The notes under the pieces: model-generated | Seen by the model: only the letters and a program-made list of their open reading frames with translations | Told to the model about the DNA's origin: nothing | The model's database searches: none | Part shown: piece by piece, positions 37,121 to 49,006 of the stretch | Position numbering within the stretch: the stretch's first letter is position 1 | Layout of the letters: each line of letters begins with the position of its first letter | Source of the DNA: Dehalococcoidia bacterium | GTDB taxonomy: Bacteria; Chloroflexota; Dehalococcoidia; Lucifugimonadales; VXLM01 | Assembly: GCA_009841605.1 (NCBI GenBank) | Contig: VXLM01000034.1 | Location: forward strand, 2,320 to 66,319 | Length of the DNA stretch: 64,000 nucleotides | Reading direction: 5' to 3' | Made by a program: the position numbers and the translations under genes

Positions 37121-38362
37121 TTACCTCCCAAATTCCGGGATCGATGCGCCGTCGGCAATCGCCTGGAGCATGGCCTCGGTCTCCACTGCAATACGGTCAT
37201 AGTCGAATTGGTTTGCCAGAGCACGGCAGTTGCTGCTCATTTGGCTCAAGACCTCCCTGTCCGTGTCCAGTTCAGCGAGGACGTCGGCCAGTGCGTCCGA
37301 ATCCCCGGGGCGGAACGTCCACCCGGCCTTCCCCTCTTCGACCAATCTTGCGCCCTCGCATCCCGAACTGATGACCAAGGGAACGCCCGACGCCAACGTT
37401 TCATAGACCTTCGAGGGAATCGTACCGGGAAACTCCGCAGCCAGAGGTACGAGGGCGACATCGCACGAGGCAACATACGAGGGGATATGCTCTTGGTCTA
37501 CGAGGTCAGCAAAGCGTATGTTGTCCAGTCCCTTGCCCTCAGCCAGTGCAACGATATCCGCCTTACAGGGGCCGTCTCCCACCATGACGAACTTGATCCT
37601 CCGACGGTCACGCAGCCTCTCCGCAGCCTCCACAACGACATGCAGGCCTTGGAACAGTCCATGCAGTCCGAAGTAGCCGACCAGAAAGTCCCCCTGGTCT
37701 GCGCCCAGCGAGTCACGAATCTCCTGGCTTTTGAGCGCCGGATCGAATACGCGCAGGTCTGCTCCATTGCCAATCACCGCGGTGCGTACTTTAGGGAATC
37801 TCTCGTTGATACGCTCCTTCGCGGCGCCATTGGTTGTCGTCACGATGTCAGCACTTCGGTAGCCAAAGCTCTCCAGTCGGTTCAGCACCCACAAGGAGGT
37901 CCTGCCCATGGGATGACCCAGCTGCAGGGCCATCTCGGGCCAGATGTCGGAGACGTTCATGATCACCCGTGCGCCTGTCAGACGCCCTATGGCTAGCCCA
38001 GTGGGAACGAGCGGAAGCGGTGGCGTGTCGAAGAGAACGATGTCCTGCCGTCCAATTTCCCAAATGCCCATCAATAGACTCGACAGGGTGAAGGACGCAT
38101 AGCTCAAGAACCGAGGCAAAAACCTGGAAGAATTAGACGGAAATATCCATGTTCTAACGACCCTTACTCCGTCGATATCGTCCTGCGTCCGTATCTTTCC
38201 GCGATATCCCTCAAATGTCCGCCCTGTCGGATAGTTGGGCATCGCCGTGATCACGGTGACGCTATGGCCCTTCCCGGCCAGGCTCTTCGTCATCTTGTGC
38301 AGCCGGGCAGCGGTCGCTCCCACCTCAGGTGGAAAGTTCTGCGTGAGTACGACGATCTTCAT
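37121..38362 (-). CDS. GT4 glycosyltransferase of the surface polysaccharide locus
   Basis: 413 aa, GT-B fold. N-terminal domain with LTQNFPPEVGATAARLHKMTKSL (WbuB-like), and C-terminal GTIPSKVYETLASGVPLVIS with the family's conserved Glu. FMVGDGPCKADI is typical of GT4. WbuB-like enzymes move N-acetyl-hexosamine-type sugars onto an acceptor, which would suit the UDP-ManNAc/ManNAcA made by the two upstream genes. Last gene of the seven-gene minus-strand locus. Donor specificity is inference. Confidence 0.88.
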   Translation of the reverse strand: MKIVVLTQNFPPEVGATAARLHKMTKSLAGKGHSVTVITAMPNYPTGRTFEGYRGKIRTQDDIDGVRVVRTWIFPSNSSRFLPRFLSYASFTLSSLLMGIWEIGRQDIVLFDTPPLPLVPTGLAIGRLTGARVIMNVSDIWPEMALQLGHPMGRTSLWVLNRLESFGYRSADIVTTTNGAAKERINERFPKVRTAVIGNGADLRVFDPALKSQEIRDSLGADQGDFLVGYFGLHGLFQGLHVVVEAAERLRDRRRIKFVMVGDGPCKADIVALAEGKGLDNIRFADLVDQEHIPSYVASCDVALVPLAAEFPGTIPSKVYETLASGVPLVISSGCEGARLVEEGKAGWTFRPGDSDALADVLAELDTDREVLSQMSSNCRALANQFDYDRIAVETEAMLQAIADGASIPEFGR

Positions 38363-38431: not shown

Positions 38432-39700
38432 TCAGGCCCCGCACTTGCTGCGGTCCCATAGGCCACGCGAGTCTACAACCGACTTCGAGGCCAGCGTCTC
38501 CTGATCTATCTCTGCGAACACGCTATGGTCCGTGAGCAGTACGACAACGTCCGCCGCTGAAAGCCCGTCTTCGAGCCCTACAAGTTCAATATTCCCACAG
38601 TTGGAGATCTCCGACGGTAACTCGGAAACATAGGGCTCAACCACCAGAATTCGACCCTTCTTCCGACGTTGCAGTTCCTTGACTACCTCAATTGCGGGAC
38701 TTTCCCGCAAGTCTGACACGTCTGCCTTGTAGGTCAGTCCCAGGCAGGCCACAACAGGGTCGGCCAGATCCTTGCATACGTGCACTACTCTGTCGGCAAC
38801 TACCTTGGGCATCCCGTCGTTGACCTCTCGCGCTGCCTGAATCAGCGGAGTCAAATGCGGAGCGGCGTCGGCGATGAACCACGGATCGATTGGGATGCAG
38901 TGCCCTCCCACCCCTGGGCCGGGATTGAGTATCTCAACTCTGGGATGCCGGTTTGCGAGTGATATCAACTCCCATGGATCGATGTCGAGTGCCGTGCTGA
39001 CTAAGGACATTTCATTGGCGAATGCCACGTTGACGTCTCGGAAGGCATTCTCAGCGAGCTTCGCCAGCTCCGCCGTCCGCACGGTGGTGACGTGGCAGAC
39101 GCCTTCGACGAAGACCTCGTACAGCCGTTTCGCCGCCTCCGCGCACGCCCGAGTGATGCCTCCGATGATGCGGTCGTTTGCGACTAGCTCCTCCAGCGCG
39201 TTCCCCGGCAGAATGCGTTCCGCGCAGTATGCCACGCGGACATCGCTCGCCTCGCCCGCGGAGTGCGGAAACGTCAGGTCAGGGCGCGACGATGCCAGCC
39301 GTTCGCAGACTTCCTCTGTCGTCCCTACGGGACAGGTCGACTCCACGATCACTAGGTTGCCCCTCGTTAAGGCAGGCGCTAGGTTGTCTATGGCCGACCG
39401 CACGTAGCTCATGTCAGGGCGGTGGCCATCGTTGATGGGAGTCGGCACCGCGATGATGAACGCATCGGCCGGCGCCGGCTCACCCTGAGCGGATAGTGCG
39501 CCGGATGCCACAGCATCCGCGACGAGACTATCCATCCCCGCTTCGTCGAAAGGAGCGACACCGCAGTTGACCCTTTCCACACGCTCCGAGTCGATGTCGA
39601 CTCCTATCACCTCCACACCCCGACTCGCCAATACCGCGGCGGTCGGCAGTCCGACATAGCCGAGGCCCACCACACAGACCCGCCCTATGCCATCAACCAC
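38432..39700 (-). CDS. wecC: UDP-N-acetyl-D-mannosamine dehydrogenase
   Basis: 422 aa, GTG start, overlapping wecB by 8 bases. Oxidises UDP-ManNAc to UDP-ManNAcA with NAD. Rossmann VVGLGYVGLPTAAVLA near residues 9-24, AERILPGNALEEL, the Lys/Asn helix ELAKLAENAFRDVNVAFANEM, and the catalytic Cys in GPGVGGHCIPIDPWF. The family also includes UDP-GlcNAc and UDP-glucose dehydrogenases, but adjacency to WecB supports ManNAc. Confidence 0.9.
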   Translation of the reverse strand: MVDGIGRVCVVGLGYVGLPTAAVLASRGVEVIGVDIDSERVERVNCGVAPFDEAGMDSLVADAVASGALSAQGEPAPADAFIIAVPTPINDGHRPDMSYVRSAIDNLAPALTRGNLVIVESTCPVGTTEEVCERLASSRPDLTFPHSAGEASDVRVAYCAERILPGNALEELVANDRIIGGITRACAEAAKRLYEVFVEGVCHVTTVRTAELAKLAENAFRDVNVAFANEMSLVSTALDIDPWELISLANRHPRVEILNPGPGVGGHCIPIDPWFIADAAPHLTPLIQAAREVNDGMPKVVADRVVHVCKDLADPVVACLGLTYKADVSDLRESPAIEVVKELQRRKKGRILVVEPYVSELPSEISNCGNIELVGLEDGLSAADVVVLLTDHSVFAEIDQETLASKSVVDSRGLWDRSKCGA

Positions 39701-40817
39701 GGGTCAGGTCCTCGAGAATGCGCTGGCTGGCGCGTCCGTCTCCGTACGGATGGTGTATCCGCGCCATGGCCATATAGGTTTCCGGCTCATTCAGCAAACG
39801 CGCCGTTTCAGTCGTAATGCGTTCGGCGTCCGTCCCTACCAACTTCACCGTCCCCACGTCGACGGCCTCTGGACGCTCGGTTGTATCGCGCATCACCAGT
39901 ACCGGCTTACCCAGCGAGGGGGCCTCCTCCTGGATTCCTCCGGAATCGGTCAGTATCAGGTAGGCTTCGTTCATGAGATGCACGAATGCCAAATAGTCTA
40001 GCGGTTCAATCAAGTGAACGTTTGGAAGGTCTGCCAAATGGCGAAATACAGGCTCGCGGACTCTGGGATTCAGATGCACCGGATATACGATCTCCACGTC
40101 GTCGCGTCGGCTGATCTGGACAATTGCCCTGCAAATCGCCTCGAACCCTTCGCCGAAGCTTTCCCGCCGGTGACCTGTTACAAGAATGAGCTTTTTCCCC
40201 GCCTCTAGCATGGGCAGCCACACGCCCGCTTTGTTAAGCAGTTCCGGGTCGCTTCTCAGACGGTCGACCACATGCAGCAGAGCGTCGATCACCGTGTTGC
40301 CCGTTACGACGATACCCGTGTCGGACAGGCCTTCTTCCAGTAGTCGCCTGCGCGCAGTCTCGGTGGGGGCGTAATGCCGATCACTCAGCGCATCCGCCAG
40401 CCTGCGGTTCATCTCCTCAGGCCACGGCGCCGACATGTCCCTCGTGCGCAACCCTGCCTCGACGTGCCCCACAGGAACATGAGCGTAAAATGCCGCCAGC
40501 GCCGTAGCCAACACGGTGGTCGTATCGCCCTGCACCAGAACGCGGTCGGGCGTCGCGTCCGCCAATACCTCACGCATTCCGCTCAGTACTGAGCCCGTGA
40601 CATCGGTGAGGTCCTGCTCCGGAGTCATCACATTCAGATCGTAGTCCGGCGTAAGTTCGAACAGCCGTAGCACGGAGTCCAGCATCTCCCGATGTTGCGC
40701 TGTAACGCACAGCACATGTTCCACTCCATCGGCTGCCAACAGAGTACGTGCGACCATGGCCATCTTCACGGCCTCAGGGCGAGTCCCGACGACGGACAGG
40801 ATACGCAAGTCAGACAT
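39693..40817 (-). CDS. wecB: UDP-N-acetylglucosamine 2-epimerase, non-hydrolysing
   Basis: 374 aa from ATG 40817 (MSDLRILSVVGTRPEAVKMA); the track TTG at 40829 is less likely. Converts UDP-GlcNAc and UDP-ManNAc. GTRPEAVKM, VQGDTTT, GHVEAGLRT, PEEMNRRLAD, TGHRRESFG and DSGGIQEEAPSLGKPVLVMRDTTERPEA are all diagnostic. Provides the substrate of WecC. Confidence 0.95.
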   Translation of the reverse strand: MSDLRILSVVGTRPEAVKMAMVARTLLAADGVEHVLCVTAQHREMLDSVLRLFELTPDYDLNVMTPEQDLTDVTGSVLSGMREVLADATPDRVLVQGDTTTVLATALAAFYAHVPVGHVEAGLRTRDMSAPWPEEMNRRLADALSDRHYAPTETARRRLLEEGLSDTGIVVTGNTVIDALLHVVDRLRSDPELLNKAGVWLPMLEAGKKLILVTGHRRESFGEGFEAICRAIVQISRRDDVEIVYPVHLNPRVREPVFRHLADLPNVHLIEPLDYLAFVHLMNEAYLILTDSGGIQEEAPSLGKPVLVMRDTTERPEAVDVGTVKLVGTDAERITTETARLLNEPETYMAMARIHHPYGDGRASQRILEDLTRG

Positions 40818-40906
40818 ACTCCGTGACAATCATAGCTCGAACGTAATGTACCATGAGCTTTCAACAAGGTCTGCTGGGCAGGTCGCCACGACGACGGTAG
40901 TAGGAG

Positions 40907-43783
40907 TCATATCATCGCCCGGCCGAGGTCCAGGCCAGGAGTATAGTCTCGGCAATTCGTCCTAAATTCGGCGTCGGAGATTTGCCATGAATGATTGGAT
41001 GACTCGTCCATCCGCACTCGTACATAATTGAACCGGTCCGCAGCATATGTCCGACATCCTGCTGCAATTGCGGCGCGTTGAAAATTCGTATCCTCCGAAA
41101 GCGAAAGAGAATTAAAGGAAATTTCTCTGGCCACGTCGGATTGAATAAACAGCGTCCCGCCTGCAACAGTGGAAGACGTGAAAGTGTGGTCGGGAGTGTT
41201 TTCCCTTAATGCGGTGATATCGGTCGCTTCAAAATGCACGAAGTGCATTCCCTTGCCCACGACCTCTGCTCCTGAGAACGATGCCGCGAGAACGCTGTCA
41301 GATATGTAATGCTCCCCGTAGAGGTCGTCATCGTCCATCTTCGCGACGTACTTGCCCGACGCTGCTTCCACTCCGCGGTTCAGGCAGTCCCCTAAAGTCG
41401 TGCGGCCCTCGACGTGAATCACCTGCACGTTAGGAATGCCTGCAACTTCACGTTGGACGGCGTCGAGATCGAATTCCGCATTGTTCAAGATGAGGATCAG
41501 TTCCTTATTCTCGTAGGCCTGATTCTTGAAATTGTCGAGGCAGTGCCTCACATTCTGAGGACGCATCGTGGGCATCAGAACGCTTACCGGTGGCTGCTCG
41601 TGGTTGAGTGGCTCAAGTCCAACCCTGCGAAAGATCTCGTTCAGGCGGTGCCGATAGGTGTGGTTCTCGTGCACATGCCTGTAAGCAAGGTGTCCTTCGC
41701 GGATACGCGCCTCTTCGTCCCCCAGTAATTCTTGAAGGTGACTGGTCGTTTCCTGCTCGCTGTGCGTCACCCTCACGTGCTTCCCCAGCATCCGGCTCAT
41801 GCCTACGGACTCCGACGAGATCACCGGCGTACCACACGCGAGGCTTTCAAACACTCGGCGAGCGAACATTGTCGGAGATTCGCTGATCGAGTTGACGTTT
41901 AGCATCACGTCATAGCAGCGATAAGCAGTTAGCATCGCTTCGTAAGAGAGGGTTCCCCTGACTGCTTCCTTGTACCGGTCCGGAAAGCTATGTTCCAGCC
42001 CGTATTCGGCCCGCGTCAGGTTGCGGTCGAAGATGTGCAGACCGCGCGTAAGGCTTGGGTCCAGCAAATGGCGGAGCCTTTCGGAGCGCGCCGGATACCT
42101 CTGTGGCACCCAACTCCCTGCGAAACACAGGGGGTACTTGGGCCACTCTCTCTCCCGCGATGGATTGTGTATTCTCGGCTGGGCCGCAAAGGGAAGTACG
42201 TATATCCGGTCGTGTCCCAACGCCTCCCGGTATCGCGGAACGCAGTCCGCGTCCGAGGTGAAGACGAAGTCGAACTCCTTGGCAGCACCGAGAAAATCGT
42301 CGAAGTGCGGCGGGTCTTCTTTGTTCCAGAATATGGTCGGAATCCCGTTGGAACGACAGTATGCCAGCAGCTCGCGCAGGGGATTGTCATCGTCGGCATC
42401 ATAACCGACAATCCTGTTCTGCCACCTTCCATCATTGCCGCGCCATGCCGACTCCACAAAAAGGCATGCCGGGCGAATCCTCTCCATTCGTTCGCGCCAG
42501 TGCGTGCGGGAAACGAGCACGAGGTTCACATCATATCGCAGGGCGTGCTCCGTGAACTTGTCCACGATGGCCGCTACGACGGGACCGTCCTCCCCGGGCT
42601 CCGGAATCAACAGCGGCGGAAAATCGATAAATCCGGAAGGGTCGAGAAACGCATCTTCGGAGATGACATCCGGCTCTTCGGGGACGTAGGGACGCGGAGC
42701 ATTTGAGGCTTCCGGGACCGCATTCTCCTCTGATGTAGCTGTGGACTTGGCCCGATAGAGTCGCATCATCTGCAACGGCAGCTTCCACAGCGTCAGCGGC
42801 CTCCTCGCCGCATCGACCATCGCCGCACCAACCAGAAACGATGTGCTCGATAGAGTCGTTTCGAGGTGCCGATTCAACGTCCTCACTTCACGTACTTTCG
42901 TGTCAAGCTCTCTCTTCCTAGCTGCGAGCCGCTCTTTGAATTTCGTCAGGGCGATCCGGTTCAACTTCGCCCAGAACTCGAGTTGAATCGTCTTCCGATC
43001 ACCCTCGCTAAGCCGGCTTTGAGCTGCCCTCTCCGTCTCGACTCGCTGCCGGAGGCGCCGTTGGAGCCGTTCAATCTGACTGCTCTTCCTAGCCAGAATT
43101 TTGTACAACTCTCTCTGGGAAGCGGCCAGCGCATCCTCCGTCATGGACAGGATCGTCTGCCTATCGAGACGCTCCCACGAGACATCTCCGTGCTCCGCCA
43201 AGTGCCCTGCGAAACGGATGTGATTGTCTTCTACGACCAGCGACTCCAGCCCCACTCTCGGCTTGAGTAAACTGATGAAGTCAGTAAGGCTGAAGCCCTG
43301 ACTTTCATTATCGAGTGGATGGACTCCGAACTGCGTTGTTACGATGAACCGCCCTCCGGGACGGAGATGCTCCAGTCCCCTGTCCACCATTGCGCCCGGA
43401 TCGTCAAGATAATCAAGTAGCTGCCCCATCACCACGGTGTCGAAGAGGCCGGTCACCTGCCGTGTCTCAGTGAAGTCTCCCTGGACGAATTCGACGCGCT
43501 CTCGCACCTCGTCAGGCTCTTTGGCCAGGTGTTCTCGTGCGAAATCGAGCGCATCGGCATCAGTATCCACACCGGTGACGTTGATCCCCTGTCGCCCGAG
43601 TAGCACTCCCAGGATGCCTTCGCTGCAGCCCACGTCCAACACGCGAGGCCCATGAGCTTCAGCCGCGATCCAGTCGATCCGGCGGCGAAGCCAGTCGCCG
43701 GTAGGCCCTATATCAAGCAACCCAAGATACACTTGGGACACGCAGTCCCTCTTTGCGGGCGCCATCGGGACTCTCCCAGTCAT
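40907..43783 (-). CDS. Methyltransferase / coiled-coil / dual glycosyltransferase fusion, paralog B
   Basis: 958 aa from ATG 43783, an ATGA overlap with paralog A; the track start is 15 codons upstream. Domains: class I SAM methyltransferase (about 20-190; RVLDVGCSEGILGVLLG at 47-63, VVMGQLLDYLDD); a Gln/Arg/Glu coiled coil (about 225-320); an amphipathic patch (FLVGAAMVDAARRPL); a GT-B/CgeB-like glycosyltransferase (about 400-720; IFWNKEDPPHFDDF, FAGSWVPQRYP, VFESLACGTPVISSESVGM); and a C-terminal GT2 (about 735-958; VSVLMPTMRPQNV, DXD-like KMDDDDLYGE). Probably cytoplasmic, building and modifying a glycan. Closely related to the preceding gene throughout. Confidence 0.85.
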   Translation of the reverse strand: MTGRVPMAPAKRDCVSQVYLGLLDIGPTGDWLRRRIDWIAAEAHGPRVLDVGCSEGILGVLLGRQGINVTGVDTDADALDFAREHLAKEPDEVRERVEFVQGDFTETRQVTGLFDTVVMGQLLDYLDDPGAMVDRGLEHLRPGGRFIVTTQFGVHPLDNESQGFSLTDFISLLKPRVGLESLVVEDNHIRFAGHLAEHGDVSWERLDRQTILSMTEDALAASQRELYKILARKSSQIERLQRRLRQRVETERAAQSRLSEGDRKTIQLEFWAKLNRIALTKFKERLAARKRELDTKVREVRTLNRHLETTLSSTSFLVGAAMVDAARRPLTLWKLPLQMMRLYRAKSTATSEENAVPEASNAPRPYVPEEPDVISEDAFLDPSGFIDFPPLLIPEPGEDGPVVAAIVDKFTEHALRYDVNLVLVSRTHWRERMERIRPACLFVESAWRGNDGRWQNRIVGYDADDDNPLRELLAYCRSNGIPTIFWNKEDPPHFDDFLGAAKEFDFVFTSDADCVPRYREALGHDRIYVLPFAAQPRIHNPSREREWPKYPLCFAGSWVPQRYPARSERLRHLLDPSLTRGLHIFDRNLTRAEYGLEHSFPDRYKEAVRGTLSYEAMLTAYRCYDVMLNVNSISESPTMFARRVFESLACGTPVISSESVGMSRMLGKHVRVTHSEQETTSHLQELLGDEEARIREGHLAYRHVHENHTYRHRLNEIFRRVGLEPLNHEQPPVSVLMPTMRPQNVRHCLDNFKNQAYENKELILILNNAEFDLDAVQREVAGIPNVQVIHVEGRTTLGDCLNRGVEAASGKYVAKMDDDDLYGEHYISDSVLAASFSGAEVVGKGMHFVHFEATDITALRENTPDHTFTSSTVAGGTLFIQSDVAREISFNSLSLSEDTNFQRAAIAAGCRTYAADRFNYVRVRMDESSNHSWQISDAEFRTNCRDYTPGLDLGRAMI

Positions 43784-46620
43784 AGTATTGCGCGGCTGAG
43801 GTCGAGACCCGGCGTATGATCTCGACATTCCTTCAGGACTTCGTTGTCCGGGGTCTGAGTGGTGTGATCCGACAATTGCCGTGTCCGCACTTGCACGAAG
43901 TTAAATCGGTCCGCCGAGTAGATTTTGCATCCGGCCTGTGCTGCGGCCCGTTGAAAATTCGTGTCTTCCTTAATTGAAATCGAATCGAAGGGGACATCGC
44001 GAACGACATCACTCTTGATGAACAAAGTTGCGCCCCTTACGAAGAAAGTAAACGTGTGTTCAGGCGTCTTTTCCAGCAAGGCAGTAGCATTTGAAGCTTC
44101 GAAGTACACAAAGTGCATACCCTTACCGACCACCTCTGCATCTGAGAACGAGGCCGCAAGGACACTGTCCGATAGGTACCGCTCACCGTAGTGATCGTCG
44201 TCGTCCATCTTAGCAATATAGTCTCCCGACGCCGCTGCCACCCCCCGGTTGAGACAGTCTCCTAGAGTCGAACGTCCTTCGATATGGAGCACCTGTACGT
44301 TTGGAATGCCGTCGGTATGCCTGCGGATGGCTTCTAGGTCGAACTCCGCATTGTTCAAGAGGAGAAGCAGTTCCTTATTCTCATACGTTTGCTTCGTGAA
44401 GTTTTCAAGGCATCGGAGCACGTTCTCTGGGCGCATTGTCGGCATCAAAACACTTACGGAGGGTTGCTCAAGCTCGAGAGAACCCAGACCGACTGTGTGG
44501 AATATGCTGGCCATTCTGTGCCTGTAAGTATGGTTCTCATGTACGAATCTGTAGGCCAGATGACCCTCGCGGACACGCGACTCTTCGTTCCCGAGGACTT
44601 CCACTAAGTGGTCAGTAGCGTCCTCTACACTGCGTGCGACTCTGACGTGCCCCTCAAGCATTTGGCTCATGCCGACGGACTCGGAGGAAATTACCGGCGT
44701 CCCGCACGCGAGGCTTTCAAATACCCTGCGGGAGAACATTGTTGGGGATTCAGAAACCGTGTTCACGTTCAGGAGAACGTTATAACAGCGGTAGGCAGTC
44801 AACATCTCCTTATATGATAGTGTTCCTTTAATCGCCTCCTTGTATCGGTCGGGGAAGTGGTAATTGGGTCCCATCTCGATACGTGAAAGGTTACGATCAA
44901 AAATGTGCAGACCGACAGGAAGTGCGGGGTCCAGCAGGGATCGGAGCGACTCGGCACGTTCGGGATATCGGTGTTGTATCCAACTCCCAGCGAAACAGAC
45001 CGGATATTTGGGCCAGTCTTCTTGACGGGATGGATTGTGTAGTCTTGGTTGCGCCGCGAACGGCAGAGCATACACACGGTCGTGACCTAGAGTCTCGCGG
45101 TACAGAGGTATGCAGTCCGCATCGGTGGTGAAGACGAAGTCAAACTCTTTAGCGGCCCCAATGAAGTCATCGAAGTGCGGAGGATCTTCCTTGTTCCAAA
45201 ATATGGTCGGGATCCCGGTTGAGCTACAATAGCGCAGCAAATCACCTAGTGGATTGTCATCTTGCCTTTCGTAGCGGTGAACCCTTCGCTGCCACTCTCC
45301 GCCATTACCGCTAAACGTCGACTCAACAAGTAGGCATACAGGCCGAGTTGTTTCAATCTCAGTACGCCATCTTTCACGTGACAGAAGCAGAAGGTTCAAC
45401 TCATACCGCAGCGAGTGTTCGGTGAACGTATCGAGTATGGCGGCCACCGGAGGGCCATTTGTCTTGGACTCCGGCATGGATAGTGGTGGGAAGCTGACGA
45501 AACGAGAAACGTCCAAGTCCAAATAGGATGGAATGTTCCGGTAACGCTCATCTGAATCGCTCGCTTCGCTAGCTTCAACAGCCGGAGTGGAAGCTGAGCG
45601 ATATAGTCGCAAGAGATAGAAAGGCAGCTTCCAGAGCTTCTTCGGCTGCTTGGCGGCATTTACGATTGCAGATCCTGCGAGGAACGACGTGCTTGAGTAA
45701 GCCGCCTGAATTCGATGCCTCAGCACACGAACCTCTGACTCTCTGGCGTCTAGATTCCTTTTCAGTTGTGTTGAGGCAAGTTTGTGTTGGGCTAGAGCGA
45801 TGCGGTCCAGCTTCGTCTGCCGTTCAAGGTTTTCGATCCTGTTTCGAATTCCGTCAACTCTGTCTTTTAGACGCTCCCTCTGCCCTTCGAGTTCCTTGAT
45901 GCGACTCCCTCGCCTCGACAGCATTTCCTCCAGCTTCCCTTGGGAATCCATGAGCGCCGTCTCAGTCATGGACAAGACCGCGCCCTCATCGAGTCGCTGC
46001 CAGGAGGCCTCGCGGTCCTCGGAAAGACTGCCCACGAAACGTATGTAACCGTCCTCCACGCTCATGTGCTTGAGCCCCAACCTCGGCTTTAGCAACTCAA
46101 TCATGTCCGTAAGGCAAAAGGTCTGACGGTGGTCATCGTGAGGATGCAGCCCGAAGGGAGTCGTAATGACAATCCGCCCTCCCGGGCTTAGATGCTCCAG
46201 GCTCCGGTCCAGCAGCGCCTCCGGATCGTGGAGGTGCTCGAGAATCTCTCCCAGCACCACGGTGTCGAACTGACCGGTTACCGGCCGCTCGTTGATGAAG
46301 TCCCCCTGCACTAGGATCGCGCGGTTACGTACTTCCTCCGGCTCTTTGGCCAGCAGGTCACGTGCGAATTCGAGGGCCTCGGGGTTGGTCTCCACACCTG
46401 TAACGTCTACGCCCCGGCGCGCGAGTAGGACCTCCAAGATTCCCTCGCTGCAACCCACATCCAGCACCTGTGGACCTTGGGCTTGGTCTACCATCCAGTC
46501 GACTCGACGCCGGAGGACATCGCCGGTGTGACCCCAGTCCACTATGTCGAGATAGACCTGTGCGACTCTATCCCTCACTTGTGCGTCCCCCACAATAGCT
46601 TGCCCATCAGTCTCCATCAT
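43780..46620 (-). CDS. Methyltransferase / coiled-coil / dual glycosyltransferase fusion, paralog A
   Basis: 946 aa from ATG 46620 (ATG 46617 also possible); the track start would overlap the ABC gene by 128 bases. Same order as paralog B: SAM methyltransferase (VLDVGCSEG at 52-60, with VVLGEILEHLHDPEALLDRSLEH), coiled coil (RIKELEGQRERLKDRVDGIRNRIENLE), CgeB-like GT-B domain (IFWNKEDPPHFDDFIGAAKEFDFVFTTDADC), C-terminal GT2 (KMDDDDHYGERYLSDSVLAASF). It follows the LRR-ATPase gene by 22 bases. The methyltransferase plus coiled coil recalls WbdD of E. coli O8/O9a, which caps chains, but no kinase domain is seen. Confidence 0.85.
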   Translation of the reverse strand: MMETDGQAIVGDAQVRDRVAQVYLDIVDWGHTGDVLRRRVDWMVDQAQGPQVLDVGCSEGILEVLLARRGVDVTGVETNPEALEFARDLLAKEPEEVRNRAILVQGDFINERPVTGQFDTVVLGEILEHLHDPEALLDRSLEHLSPGGRIVITTPFGLHPHDDHRQTFCLTDMIELLKPRLGLKHMSVEDGYIRFVGSLSEDREASWQRLDEGAVLSMTETALMDSQGKLEEMLSRRGSRIKELEGQRERLKDRVDGIRNRIENLERQTKLDRIALAQHKLASTQLKRNLDARESEVRVLRHRIQAAYSSTSFLAGSAIVNAAKQPKKLWKLPFYLLRLYRSASTPAVEASEASDSDERYRNIPSYLDLDVSRFVSFPPLSMPESKTNGPPVAAILDTFTEHSLRYELNLLLLSRERWRTEIETTRPVCLLVESTFSGNGGEWQRRVHRYERQDDNPLGDLLRYCSSTGIPTIFWNKEDPPHFDDFIGAAKEFDFVFTTDADCIPLYRETLGHDRVYALPFAAQPRLHNPSRQEDWPKYPVCFAGSWIQHRYPERAESLRSLLDPALPVGLHIFDRNLSRIEMGPNYHFPDRYKEAIKGTLSYKEMLTAYRCYNVLLNVNTVSESPTMFSRRVFESLACGTPVISSESVGMSQMLEGHVRVARSVEDATDHLVEVLGNEESRVREGHLAYRFVHENHTYRHRMASIFHTVGLGSLELEQPSVSVLMPTMRPENVLRCLENFTKQTYENKELLLLLNNAEFDLEAIRRHTDGIPNVQVLHIEGRSTLGDCLNRGVAAASGDYIAKMDDDDHYGERYLSDSVLAASFSDAEVVGKGMHFVYFEASNATALLEKTPEHTFTFFVRGATLFIKSDVVRDVPFDSISIKEDTNFQRAAAQAGCKIYSADRFNFVQVRTRQLSDHTTQTPDNEVLKECRDHTPGLDLSRAIL

Positions 46621-46642: not shown

Positions 46643-48181
46643 TCACAAGTCTGAACAAATCGGCAGTCCCAGTTTTTCGTGATCGCTGTCCTCGACGTCT
46701 GCCAGTCCGCTGGGGATGCATCCGGTGAACCGGTTGCCTGCCATGCGCAGACGCTGCAGGCTCGATCCAAGATTGCCGAACTCGGATGGTATGGGGCCGC
46801 TAAGCCGGTTGCTGTGCAGGTTCAGCTGAGCAAGACCGGTTAGCCGTGCTAGTTCTTCTGGGATCTCGCCGCTAAACCGGTTGTTTGACAGCCACAAACT
46901 GCGTAGACCGTCGAGCTTCCCCAATTCAACCGGTATCTCGCCAGTCAATCGGTTTTCATGGATATGCAACTCCTCCAAGTTCAACAGCCGTCCCACTTCC
47001 GCGGGGACGTTACCGCTGAGCTTGTTGTTGTGGAGATTCAACCTCCTCAATTCGGATGCGCGGGCTAATGCTGTCGGGATAGCGCCGCTCAGTTCGTTGT
47101 TGTCGAGAAGCAGCACCTCCAAGTTGGCAAGCTGTCCAAGCTCCGGCGGAATCGGACCGTTCAGCCGGTTGCCATGGAGGTCGAGTTTGGTCAACTTCGA
47201 GAGTGATCCCAACTCAGGCGGCAATGACCCGCTCAACTCTCTTTGTCGGAGAATCAGCCGAGTGACACGCCTCGGTTTTCCGCTCACGAGGAGGCCTTCC
47301 CAATTTGTGATGGGAATATCATTTGACCAATTGAGCACTGCTGTCCCCGCCAGACTGTCTTTGGCCGCCAGAAGAGCCTTGGAGTCTGCAATCATCCCCT
47401 CGTTTGGTCTGGTGGTATCGGCGGCATACTTACCTAGCACTTCGTTCACGCCACCGACCGCTCTCACCTGCCCGCGGTCCAGCCAGATCGCTTCGGTACA
47501 AAACTCGCGAATGATCTCAGGCGACTGTGAGACGACAACCAGGGTATTCGCGGAAGTCATCATCTCGTTGAGGCGATCCTTGGCCTTGAGACGAAAGCTC
47601 TTGTCGCCCGTTCCAATGACCTCGTCGACGAGCAAAATATCCGGGCTTATGCAAGTTGCAATGGACAGCACAAGTCGAGTCCGCATCCCGGAAGAATATG
47701 TTCGAATCGGCATGTAGATGTAGTCGCCAAGCTCAGTGAATTCAATAATCTCCGGAATCCGCCTGTTGATCTCCTTTCGAGTCAGTCCCAGCAGGATGCC
47801 TGTCAGAACGATGTTCTCGAGGCCGGTAGCGTCCGGGCGGACGCCAAGAAGCTCAGGGAAGAGAGTCGAGACACGTCCATATGTTTCCGCGAGCCCTCGT
47901 GTTGGGAAATAGATTCCCGCCATCACCCTCAACAGGGTGCTCTTACCGGCGCCGTTGGCTCCGATCAATCCGACTCTTTGTCCTCTGGATATGTTGATGC
48001 TGACGTCTTCCAGGATCGTCACGGTCGCTGCAGACCCCCGTCCATAGCTGAGCCGCCCGCCGATTTGGGTAGAGGAGGAAGGTGTGCCATTCGTCTCTCG
48101 TCTTGCCCCATGCGGAAGGCGGCGTTTAGCCGGAATCTCCAGCGTTACATCCTGCAGTTTGATGGCGAAATCGTTGTCCAT
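46643..48181 (-). CDS. Wzt-type polysaccharide ABC ATPase fused to an LRR domain
   Basis: 512 aa. Residues 1-255 are a polysaccharide-export ATPase: Walker A GANGAGKST at 74-82, YSSGM signature at 162-166, Walker B ILLVDE at 182-187, with RVSTLFPELLGVRPDATGLENI typical of Wzt/TagH. The H-loop, normally SHS, reads SQS (about 218-220). From about 262 an LRR N-cap (DSKALLAAKDSLAGTAVLNW) leads to eight plant-type LRRs of 24 residues and a cap GCIPSGLADVEDSD..LPIC like those of the lipoproteins at 1-1726. Three bases after the permease. Confidence 0.9.
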   Translation of the reverse strand: MDNDFAIKLQDVTLEIPAKRRLPHGARRETNGTPSSSTQIGGRLSYGRGSAATVTILEDVSINISRGQRVGLIGANGAGKSTLLRVMAGIYFPTRGLAETYGRVSTLFPELLGVRPDATGLENIVLTGILLGLTRKEINRRIPEIIEFTELGDYIYMPIRTYSSGMRTRLVLSIATCISPDILLVDEVIGTGDKSFRLKAKDRLNEMMTSANTLVVVSQSPEIIREFCTEAIWLDRGQVRAVGGVNEVLGKYAADTTRPNEGMIADSKALLAAKDSLAGTAVLNWSNDIPITNWEGLLVSGKPRRVTRLILRQRELSGSLPPELGSLSKLTKLDLHGNRLNGPIPPELGQLANLEVLLLDNNELSGAIPTALARASELRRLNLHNNKLSGNVPAEVGRLLNLEELHIHENRLTGEIPVELGKLDGLRSLWLSNNRFSGEIPEELARLTGLAQLNLHSNRLSGPIPSEFGNLGSSLQRLRMAGNRFTGCIPSGLADVEDSDHEKLGLPICSDL

Positions 48182-48184
48182 GGA

Positions 48185-49006
48185 CTATATCCAGAGGGTA
48201 AGGGCTCGACGCAGTCGATTGTACACGACGCACATGATCCCAATGCCAACGAGGTTGATGATCAGAACGACCGCCCACGATGTCAATGAGACGGACTCGC
48301 CGATCAGTGGTGCGCGCACGATTTCCATGAAGTGAGTAAAAGGATTGTAATTCGCGAGGTATGCGCGATCATCAAGACCATCCGCATACCAGAACACCGG
48401 CGTGGCGAAAAACAGAAACCTCATTCCTGCCCGCAGCAGGTGGGTGAAGTCTCTGAATCTCGCGCCGATGAATCCCAGCAGCGGCACGGCCCATAAGGTC
48501 GTGAACACCAGCACCACAAGTCCCGGAACGGCGAATAGAACCACCGGCTCAACAGGGGTGCGCGTGAGAACCATTACCGCAATGAATACAATCGAGTGGA
48601 TGGACAGCTTGGCCAGATGCTCGATCACGTTCCGCAGCACGTAGGTGAACATTGGGTTGTTGACCGAGACAATCTGTCTTGAGTTGGCGACAAAGACGTT
48701 CGCGCCGGTCGTGAGCGTGCTCGACACGTACTGCCAGAGAACGACTCCCGACGCCATGTAGACGAGATAGTCGCCTTGGTCATGTCCGAGCAGGCGACCG
48801 AAGAGAAGCCCAAGCCCTGCGACCCACACAGCAATGATAATGACTTCCCAGAGTGGGCCAATGAACGCTCTGCGATACTGCAGCTCGAAGTCGTACCACC
48901 CCATGGTTACCCACAGGGGCGTTCGCAAGAAGGACTGGACAATGTCGTCAACGCCGGAGAGAAATCCGGCGTCCGATGACCTGACTGTCACATGAGAGTT
49001 TCGCAA
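48185..49006 (-). CDS. Wzm-type polysaccharide ABC permease
   Basis: 273 aa; TTG 49006 as in the track, with GTG 48991 an alternative; neither has a strong SD. ABC-2 family export permease with about six membrane segments: WYDFELQYRRAFIGPLWEVI (amphipathic gate helix before TM1), YVSSTLTTGANVFVANSRQIVSVNNPMFTYVLRNVIEH, and RDFTHLLRAGMRFLFFATPVFWYADGL, typical of Wzm/TagG/KpsM. First gene of the locus; the ATPase starts 3 bases after it. Confidence 0.92.
   Translation of the reverse strand: MRNSHVTVRSSDAGFLSGVDDIVQSFLRTPLWVTMGWYDFELQYRRAFIGPLWEVIIIAVWVAGLGLLFGRLLGHDQGDYLVYMASGVVLWQYVSSTLTTGANVFVANSRQIVSVNNPMFTYVLRNVIEHLAKLSIHSIVFIAVMVLTRTPVEPVVLFAVPGLVVLVFTTLWAVPLLGFIGARFRDFTHLLRAGMRFLFFATPVFWYADGLDDRAYLANYNPFTHFMEIVRAPLIGESVSLTSWAVVLIINLVGIGIMCVVYNRLRRALTLWI

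Follow-up and report, generated by a model that had tools for sequence, protein, structure and literature searches.

The locus described here raises the question of why one operon for an exported glycan carries two adjacent enzymes of the same four-part build, and whether the two do one job twice or divide it between them. The window, which is the whole stretch of 64,000 nucleotides of Dehalococcoidia DNA analysed, holds gene A (43780..46620; 946 aa) and gene B (40907..43783; 958 aa) on the minus strand, as are the other genes and domains of the window described below, and both open reading frames are intact. The 4-base overlap described in the initial annotation is seen (ATGA) if B starts at the ATG at 43783; an alternative in-frame ATG upstream, at 43828, gives an overlap of 49 bases.

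Two tandem four-part proteins and their operon

A and B sit in a Wzm/Wzt operon of the type used for ABC-exported glycans, in which the order of transcription is Wzm permease, Wzt-LRR ATPase, A, B, wecB, wecC and GT4. Profile matches and fold comparison place wzm and wzt next to the polymerase genes: the Wzm-type ABC permease (48185..49006) matches the NCBIfam family galactan_ABC_perm Wzm/RfbD at E=1.2e-57, which is below that family's cut-off, and the following gene (46643..48181) encodes a Wzt-type ATPase (residues ~1-260; ABC_tran) joined to a leucine-rich-repeat (LRR) domain (~260-512; LRR_1/LRR_8). Downstream of B lie the two genes for UDP-ManNAcA, wecB for UDP-GlcNAc 2-epimerase (39693..40829; TIGR00236, 495.9 bits for a cut-off of 210) and wecC for UDP-ManNAc dehydrogenase (38432..39700; NF008286, 547.8 bits for a cut-off of 459), and then a WcaI-like GT4 glycosyltransferase (37121..38362; PF13692/PF00534), a candidate adaptor enzyme.

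That the two adjacent proteins of ~950 residues share a four-part domain order is confirmed by Pfam and BLASTP alike. Methyltransf_11/12/23/25, Glyco_trans_1_2 (PF13524) and Glycos_transf_2 (PF00535) score over the cut-off in both, DUF3880 in A only, and the common order is methyltransferase, a gap with a predicted coiled coil, CgeB-type Glyco_trans_1_2 and Glycos_transf_2. In A, the methyltransferase domain (aa 1-211; 45988..46620; Methyltransf_23, E=4.8e-18), predicted to be active by its retained active-site residues, is followed by a coiled coil of ~98 residues (aa 212-309; 45694..45987), a stretch of the pattern SSTSF..G...V..A..P..LWKLP..L.RLYR that is predicted to form an amphipathic helix (45592..45690), a CgeB-type GT-B domain (aa 390-716; 44473..45453; PF13524 and DUF3880) and a GT2 domain with DDDD and ED motifs (aa 719-946; 43783..44466; PF00535, E=6.1e-12). 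In B, the coil (42848..43162) is by alignment and heptad statistic ~7 residues, or one heptad, longer than that of A, a difference that depends on gap placement; it is followed by a CgeB-type GT-B domain with its conserved residues kept (aa 401-727; 41603..42583; PF13524, E=9.3e-18) and a GT2 domain with the same DDDD and ED motifs (aa 731-958; 40910..41593; PF00535, E=1.8e-12).

Protein A was modelled with AlphaFold2 (mean pLDDT 88.5), which supplies the coil prediction proposed in the initial annotation. Long predicted helices lie at 212-268 and 273-309, between the methyltransferase and GT-B domains, and the coil would span ~14 nm if the helix were continuous. Heptad a/d positions were enriched relative to shuffles in both proteins (p=0.0025 in A, p=0.0045 in B). 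Two short helices of A that follow (311-324 and 326-343) are of low confidence in the model and amphipathic, with a hydrophobic moment of up to 0.55. By Pfam, heptads and AlphaFold2, a terminator domain N-terminal of a coil and two glycosyltransferase modules C-terminal of it are present. Foldseek matched the A model, with low TM-scores, to methyltransferases, to GT-A enzymes and, over both glycosyltransferase domains, to EXT1/EXT2 and EXTL3.

BLASTP aligns A and B with 588 identical residues in 952 (62%, E=0). Aligned domain by domain, the GT2 core is the least diverged part (78%), followed by CgeB (68-71%), the methyltransferase (61%) and the C-terminal part of GT2 (60%), and the coil (43%) and linker (40%) are the most diverged. 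The long near-identical segments of the initial annotation therefore hold for protein only, since no stretch of identical DNA is as long as 20 bases and dS, in all of the domains, either exceeds 1 or is saturated. A and B are ancient duplicates and real tandem paralogues. Gene conversion between them was ruled out by the same absence of any identical run of 20 bases and by dS that is high throughout. That one gene was duplicated by assembly error, which the initial annotation had raised against itself, has nothing more in its favour than that both genomes bearing the pair are MAG-derived, and we consider it excluded for practical purposes: copies with saturated synonymous sites, 62% protein identity and no identical 20-base run do not come from misassembly, and the A-B gene order is repeated in a second MAG. 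This is IRC4_bin_30, of the same genus (locus L012; 96% overall DNA identity), which also has wecB, wecC and the LRR end, and in which the only break in A falls where the contig has a stretch of N.

Methyltransferase and glycosyltransferase sites

The methyltransferase domains of A and B were aligned with those of 12 distant Chloroflexota and Bacillota relatives. A keeps E125, E128, H129, P155, D163 and H164, positions that are occupied in B of either MAG by Q, D, Y, Q, N and E. The ExxEH motif of A (E125-x-x-E128-H129; 46234..46248) is kept in 11 of the 12 relatives, and in D163-H164 (46129..46134) the Asp is shared by 11 and the His by all 12. In B these are replaced by Q121-L-L-D124-Y125 (43409..43423) and N159-E160 (43304..43309), in a state identical in the IRC4 MAG, and the SAM-binding motif I is intact in A and B alike. 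An ExxEH after beta-4 together with a His after beta-5, as in HEN1 and UbiG, is found in A and in 11 of the 12 relatives and is missing from B. H129 of A aligns with His134 of UbiG (EMLEH in UbiG), and ExxEH is the motif that matches E796/E799/H800 of HEN1; D163-H164 is matched to HEN1 D859-H860 by motif order, not by superposition. In HEN1, the ligands of the metal are Glu796, Glu799, His800, His860 and the two hydroxyls of the terminal ribose (PMC10781085). UbiG His134 (PMC4796655) is reported to be needed for growth, its HEN1 equivalent being described as magnesium-binding (PMC9774615).

From these motifs rather than from geometry, we infer that the methyltransferase of A uses a metal site to O-methylate a terminal sugar, and that the one of B has lost its function. 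Between the two MAGs, the changed codons of methyltransferase and coil are 5 nonsynonymous and 22 synonymous in A, and 21 and 15 in B (Fisher p=0.002), in agreement with relaxed constraint on B. Thus, of the proposal that each protein could methylate one chain end, the half that concerns A stands as a prediction, and only A is likely to cap, since in both genomes the ExxEH and DH residues are missing from B. Loss of the DXD or SAM motifs had been named as what would speak against the reading; motif I and DXD are kept in both proteins, but residues on the catalytic side of B are gone, so that the objection applies in part. Probably, then, termination falls to A only, and B acts as a polymerase that carries a pseudo-methyltransferase.

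The sugar-adding parts of both proteins seem to be in good order. Almost all columns that are conserved in ~80 CgeB-GT2 relatives are kept in A and B, including the DXD (DDDD) and ED of GT2, which many distant relatives have lost. A and B have two intact glycosyltransferase modules each; the initial annotation suggested that each could add two sugars. The C-terminal half of GT2 is the most divergent part of the A/B glycosyltransferase domains, and in B it also differs between the MAGs. Mismatch density and dS mark an exchanged part at 40918..41267: the window and IRC4 copies of B show 117 mismatches in the last 361 nt and 49 in the first 2516, and their last ~120 codons have 67% amino-acid identity, compared with ~98% elsewhere, with a dS of 3.2. 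Immediately downstream, DNA identity returns to 92%. The IRC4 version of this end is 55% identical to A and 67% to the window B, and no other copy that might be its donor was present in the four same-genus genomes. The acceptor-side half of GT2 seems to have been replaced by recombination, which is well documented within glycan clusters (e.g., PMC10433991); less probably, strain mixing in a MAG accounts for the difference. The divergence of the GT2 C-terminal half, together with its exchange between MAGs, fits an altered linkage or acceptor; the two alternating linkages suggested in the initial annotation are a hypothesis.

Proposed working of the pair and its alternatives

It is probable, at about 0.6 by our estimate, that A and B are paralogous chain builders of a Wzm/Wzt pathway in which A caps the chain and B polymerises with a silent cap domain, probably within one complex. 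A division of labour, rather than one job done twice, is the probable arrangement because B appears to have lost the capping methyltransferase and retains the sugar-adding parts. From the architecture, the duplication, the motif states and the operon, all of which can be read in the sequence, we infer ruler and capping functions, complex formation, sugars and linkages as follows. The CgeB GT-B and GT2 modules of each protein would extend a lipid-linked chain at the cytoplasmic side of the membrane, one of the added sugars probably being ManNAcA supplied by WecB and WecC. The ~98-residue coil would hold the N-terminal methyltransferase of A away from the polymerase; a chain end that reaches it would probably be O-methylated at a hydroxyl of the terminal sugar, which would stop growth and mark the chain for export of the capped product by Wzm/Wzt. 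B, probably in one complex with A, would contribute extra polymerase sites, with a different acceptor or linkage on the GT2 side, and no second cap site. A ruler role of the coil, as the initial annotation had it, is plausible by analogy with WbdD, WbbB and O7 ORF6 (PMC11231755), and a scheme of growth, coil, cap and export has been described for WsaE, WbdD, WbbB and O7 ORF6 (PMC2943079, PMC3482155, PMC11231755).

Several other explanations need to be weighed against capping by A alone. Both methyltransferases may be active on different acceptors or by different mechanisms, B methylating another position from a metal-free site; the strong Pfam scores and intact SAM motif of the B domain and its dN/dS below 1 between the MAGs (0.031/0.085) are points for this possibility, to which we give a limited chance, whereas the simultaneous loss of six residues conserved in 11-12 of the 12 Chloroflexota and Bacillota relatives, and the greater amino-acid change in B than in A, argue against it. 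That B is a decaying duplicate on its way to a pseudogene seems very improbable: its methyltransferase has lost catalytic residues and nonsynonymous change is higher in its methyltransferase and coil, but the reading frame is open with all glycosyltransferase motifs intact in two MAGs, for CgeB and the GT2 core the A-B comparison gives a dN as low as 0.14-0.21 while dS is above 1.7 or saturated, and even the exchanged GT2 end retains the ED motif.

It is likewise improbable that A and B act on different chains, each making a polymer of its own or feeding an export route of its own. Two intact glycosyltransferase modules in each protein would allow it, and at least two CgeB proteins occur in 25 of 80 related loci, which makes paired polymerases a recurrent arrangement; against it stand the single operon with overlapping stop and start codons, the one Wzm/Wzt pair, the one set of nucleotide-sugar genes and the fact that B would have no terminator of its own. 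More speculative than the division of labour proposed above, and rather unlikely in our judgement, is a version in which the coils of A and B co-assemble into a mixed polymerase, the inactive methyltransferase of B serves to dilute or position the active cap domain of A, dosage and coil length set the chain length, and the LRR of Wzt reads the finished chain.

The plan of polymerase, ruler and terminator in one protein is already known from WsaE, Klebsiella O7 ORF6 and WbbB. WsaE, of the Geobacillus stearothermophilus S-layer glycan, combines a methyltransferase and two glycosyltransferases in one protein, is encoded in wzm-wzt-wsaE with overlapping codons and caps its chain (PMC2943079). As compared by description, not by sequence, it resembles A and B in its N-terminal capping methyltransferase, its two glycosyltransferases, its place right after wzm-wzt and an envelope without LPS; it differs in that it adds rhamnose, with rml genes nearby, whereas A and B have a CgeB GT-B and a GT2 and lie near wecB/wecC, their coil is long, and one of the two tandem paralogues has an apparently disabled methyltransferase. 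K. pneumoniae O7 ORF6 has the order methyltransferase, kinase, coil, GT2, GT2, and its coil is treated as a ruler (PMC11231755). It shares with A and B the N-terminal methyltransferase, coiled coil and two C-terminal glycosyltransferase modules in one polypeptide from an ABC-exported glycan locus, but it has an additional kinase and CBM and two GT2 modules, where A and B have neither kinase nor CBM, one GT-B and one GT2. WbdD of E. coli O9a (PMC3482155) also has its methyltransferase terminator carried by a coiled coil, and its C-terminal region associates with the membrane; in contrast to A and B, it carries a kinase and no glycosyltransferase, its polymerase WbdA being a separate protein. 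No kinase family appeared in the Pfam or NCBIfam results for A and B, which have two glycosyltransferase domains instead.

The eukaryotic EXT1-EXT2 heparan sulfate co-polymerase, which alternates uronic acid and hexosamine, is likewise a paralogous pair in which each member has GT-B and GT-A domains and one has a dead domain (PMC9675754). EXT1 and EXT2 were the top Foldseek matches by E-value over both glycosyltransferase domains, with TM-scores of 0.19-0.23 by query, but there is no methyltransferase or coil ruler and the dead domain is a glycosyltransferase, so that the likeness is an analogy only. Three features are new here: a CgeB/GT2 pair associated with ManNAcA, a second tandem copy whose cap domain appears to be dead, and a Wzt with LRR and no carbohydrate-binding domain. 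For the ruler model, A and B would serve as a built-in natural control, as near-equal machines in one operon, one with a working cap and one without, and the difference of about one heptad between their coils would be useful in the same respect.

Export, attachment and relatives

In Wzt of the O8/O9a type, a C-terminal carbohydrate-binding domain reads the chain caps. In the window, its place is taken by the plant-like LRR domain, which is fused in frame to an ATPase whose nearest folds are Wzm-Wzt and TarGH/TagH ATPases. The lack of such a cap reader counts against the proposed capping scheme, as does the presence of the pair in two MAGs only. The junction of NBD and LRR is also present in G003, and in both MAGs, G003 included, the H-loop His that is found in 17 relatives is Gln219 (VVSQS; 47525-47527). 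When the best five candidates per genome were scored in a sample of 294 Dehalococcoidia genomes, LRR modules and Wzt were common but separate among the matches, and no Wzt-LRR fusion was seen among those of 293 other genomes. The literature search on LRR-bearing Wzt found nothing relevant.

Initiation of the glycan is likely carried out by a single phosphosugar transferase of the Bac_transf type encoded on another contig. No LCP ligase (PF03816) was found in four same-genus genomes, with the positive control detected; attachment to peptidoglycan through LCP is thus unlikely, a peptidoglycan-linked teichuronic acid was rejected, and a glycan joined to protein or lipid is the likelier product. 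Members of the SAR202 group have been reported to be without peptidoglycan genes (PMC6306507), and if this MAG should belong to SAR202, the polymer may be one of the chief components of its surface.

The A-B pair is absent from two other same-genus genomes and from nearly all other sampled Chloroflexota, and such patchiness is usual for surface-glycan loci. The tandem methyltransferase-fused pair was seen only in the window MAG and IRC4; of 400 genomes of the phylum, only two matched at 1e-30, one being that of the window and the other having no more than a partial CgeB. Fused relatives with methyltransferase, coil, CgeB and GT2 occur in Anaerolineae and Bacilli (UTCFX2, 956 aa; G797, 963 aa; G579, 935 aa; and the longer G843, 1540 aa), and in Tepidibacter and HGW-Chloroflexi-3 the methyltransferase is a separate neighbouring gene (Wzm-Wzt-MT-CgeB/GT2).

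CgeB-GT2 fusions of Arthrobacter, Listeria, Bacillus and Burkholderia have a homologous tandem (~30-43% identity) beside Wzm/Wzt and WecC, but differ from A and B in that most are without a fused methyltransferase and many have lost the GT2 DXD; no assigned function for them was found in the literature searched. A WecC-like gene is present in 66 of 79 CgeB loci, and in 47 it is no more than 300 bp away from the CgeB gene, these being raw counts from loci that are not phylogenetically independent, with many from Arthrobacter and its kin. Several of the WecC-like genes tested scored above the UDP-ManNAc dehydrogenase cut-off and others just below it. The CgeB-GT2 fusion is widespread and linked to UDP-ManNAcA and Wzm/Wzt across several phyla, which leads to a testable assignment: it would polymerise a glycan that contains ManNAcA. 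The Arthrobacter fusions, of ~635 aa, were not equated with the teichuronic acid synthetase of Micrococcus, whose subunits of 54 and 52.5 kDa (PMC3005890) are unlike them.

Two of the fused relatives show losses of their own. The GT2 DXD is lost in UTCFX2 (L013 2885-5755; IFNETDYYG), as in many Bacillota homologues, suggesting that single modules of CgeB-GT2 fusions decay independently. The methyltransferase of the Bacilli protein G579 (L124 5131-7938) is also without ExxEH (NILDEV) and is a candidate for a second, independent pseudo-methyltransferase, so B is not alone in having lost the cap site. In the genome of the window itself, contig C12 (L007 601-1680) encodes, beside a wecB fragment, a stand-alone methyltransferase with a coil and an SSxSF tail like that of A (SSSFRVG...AWRLP), which resembles a detached WbdD-like terminator.
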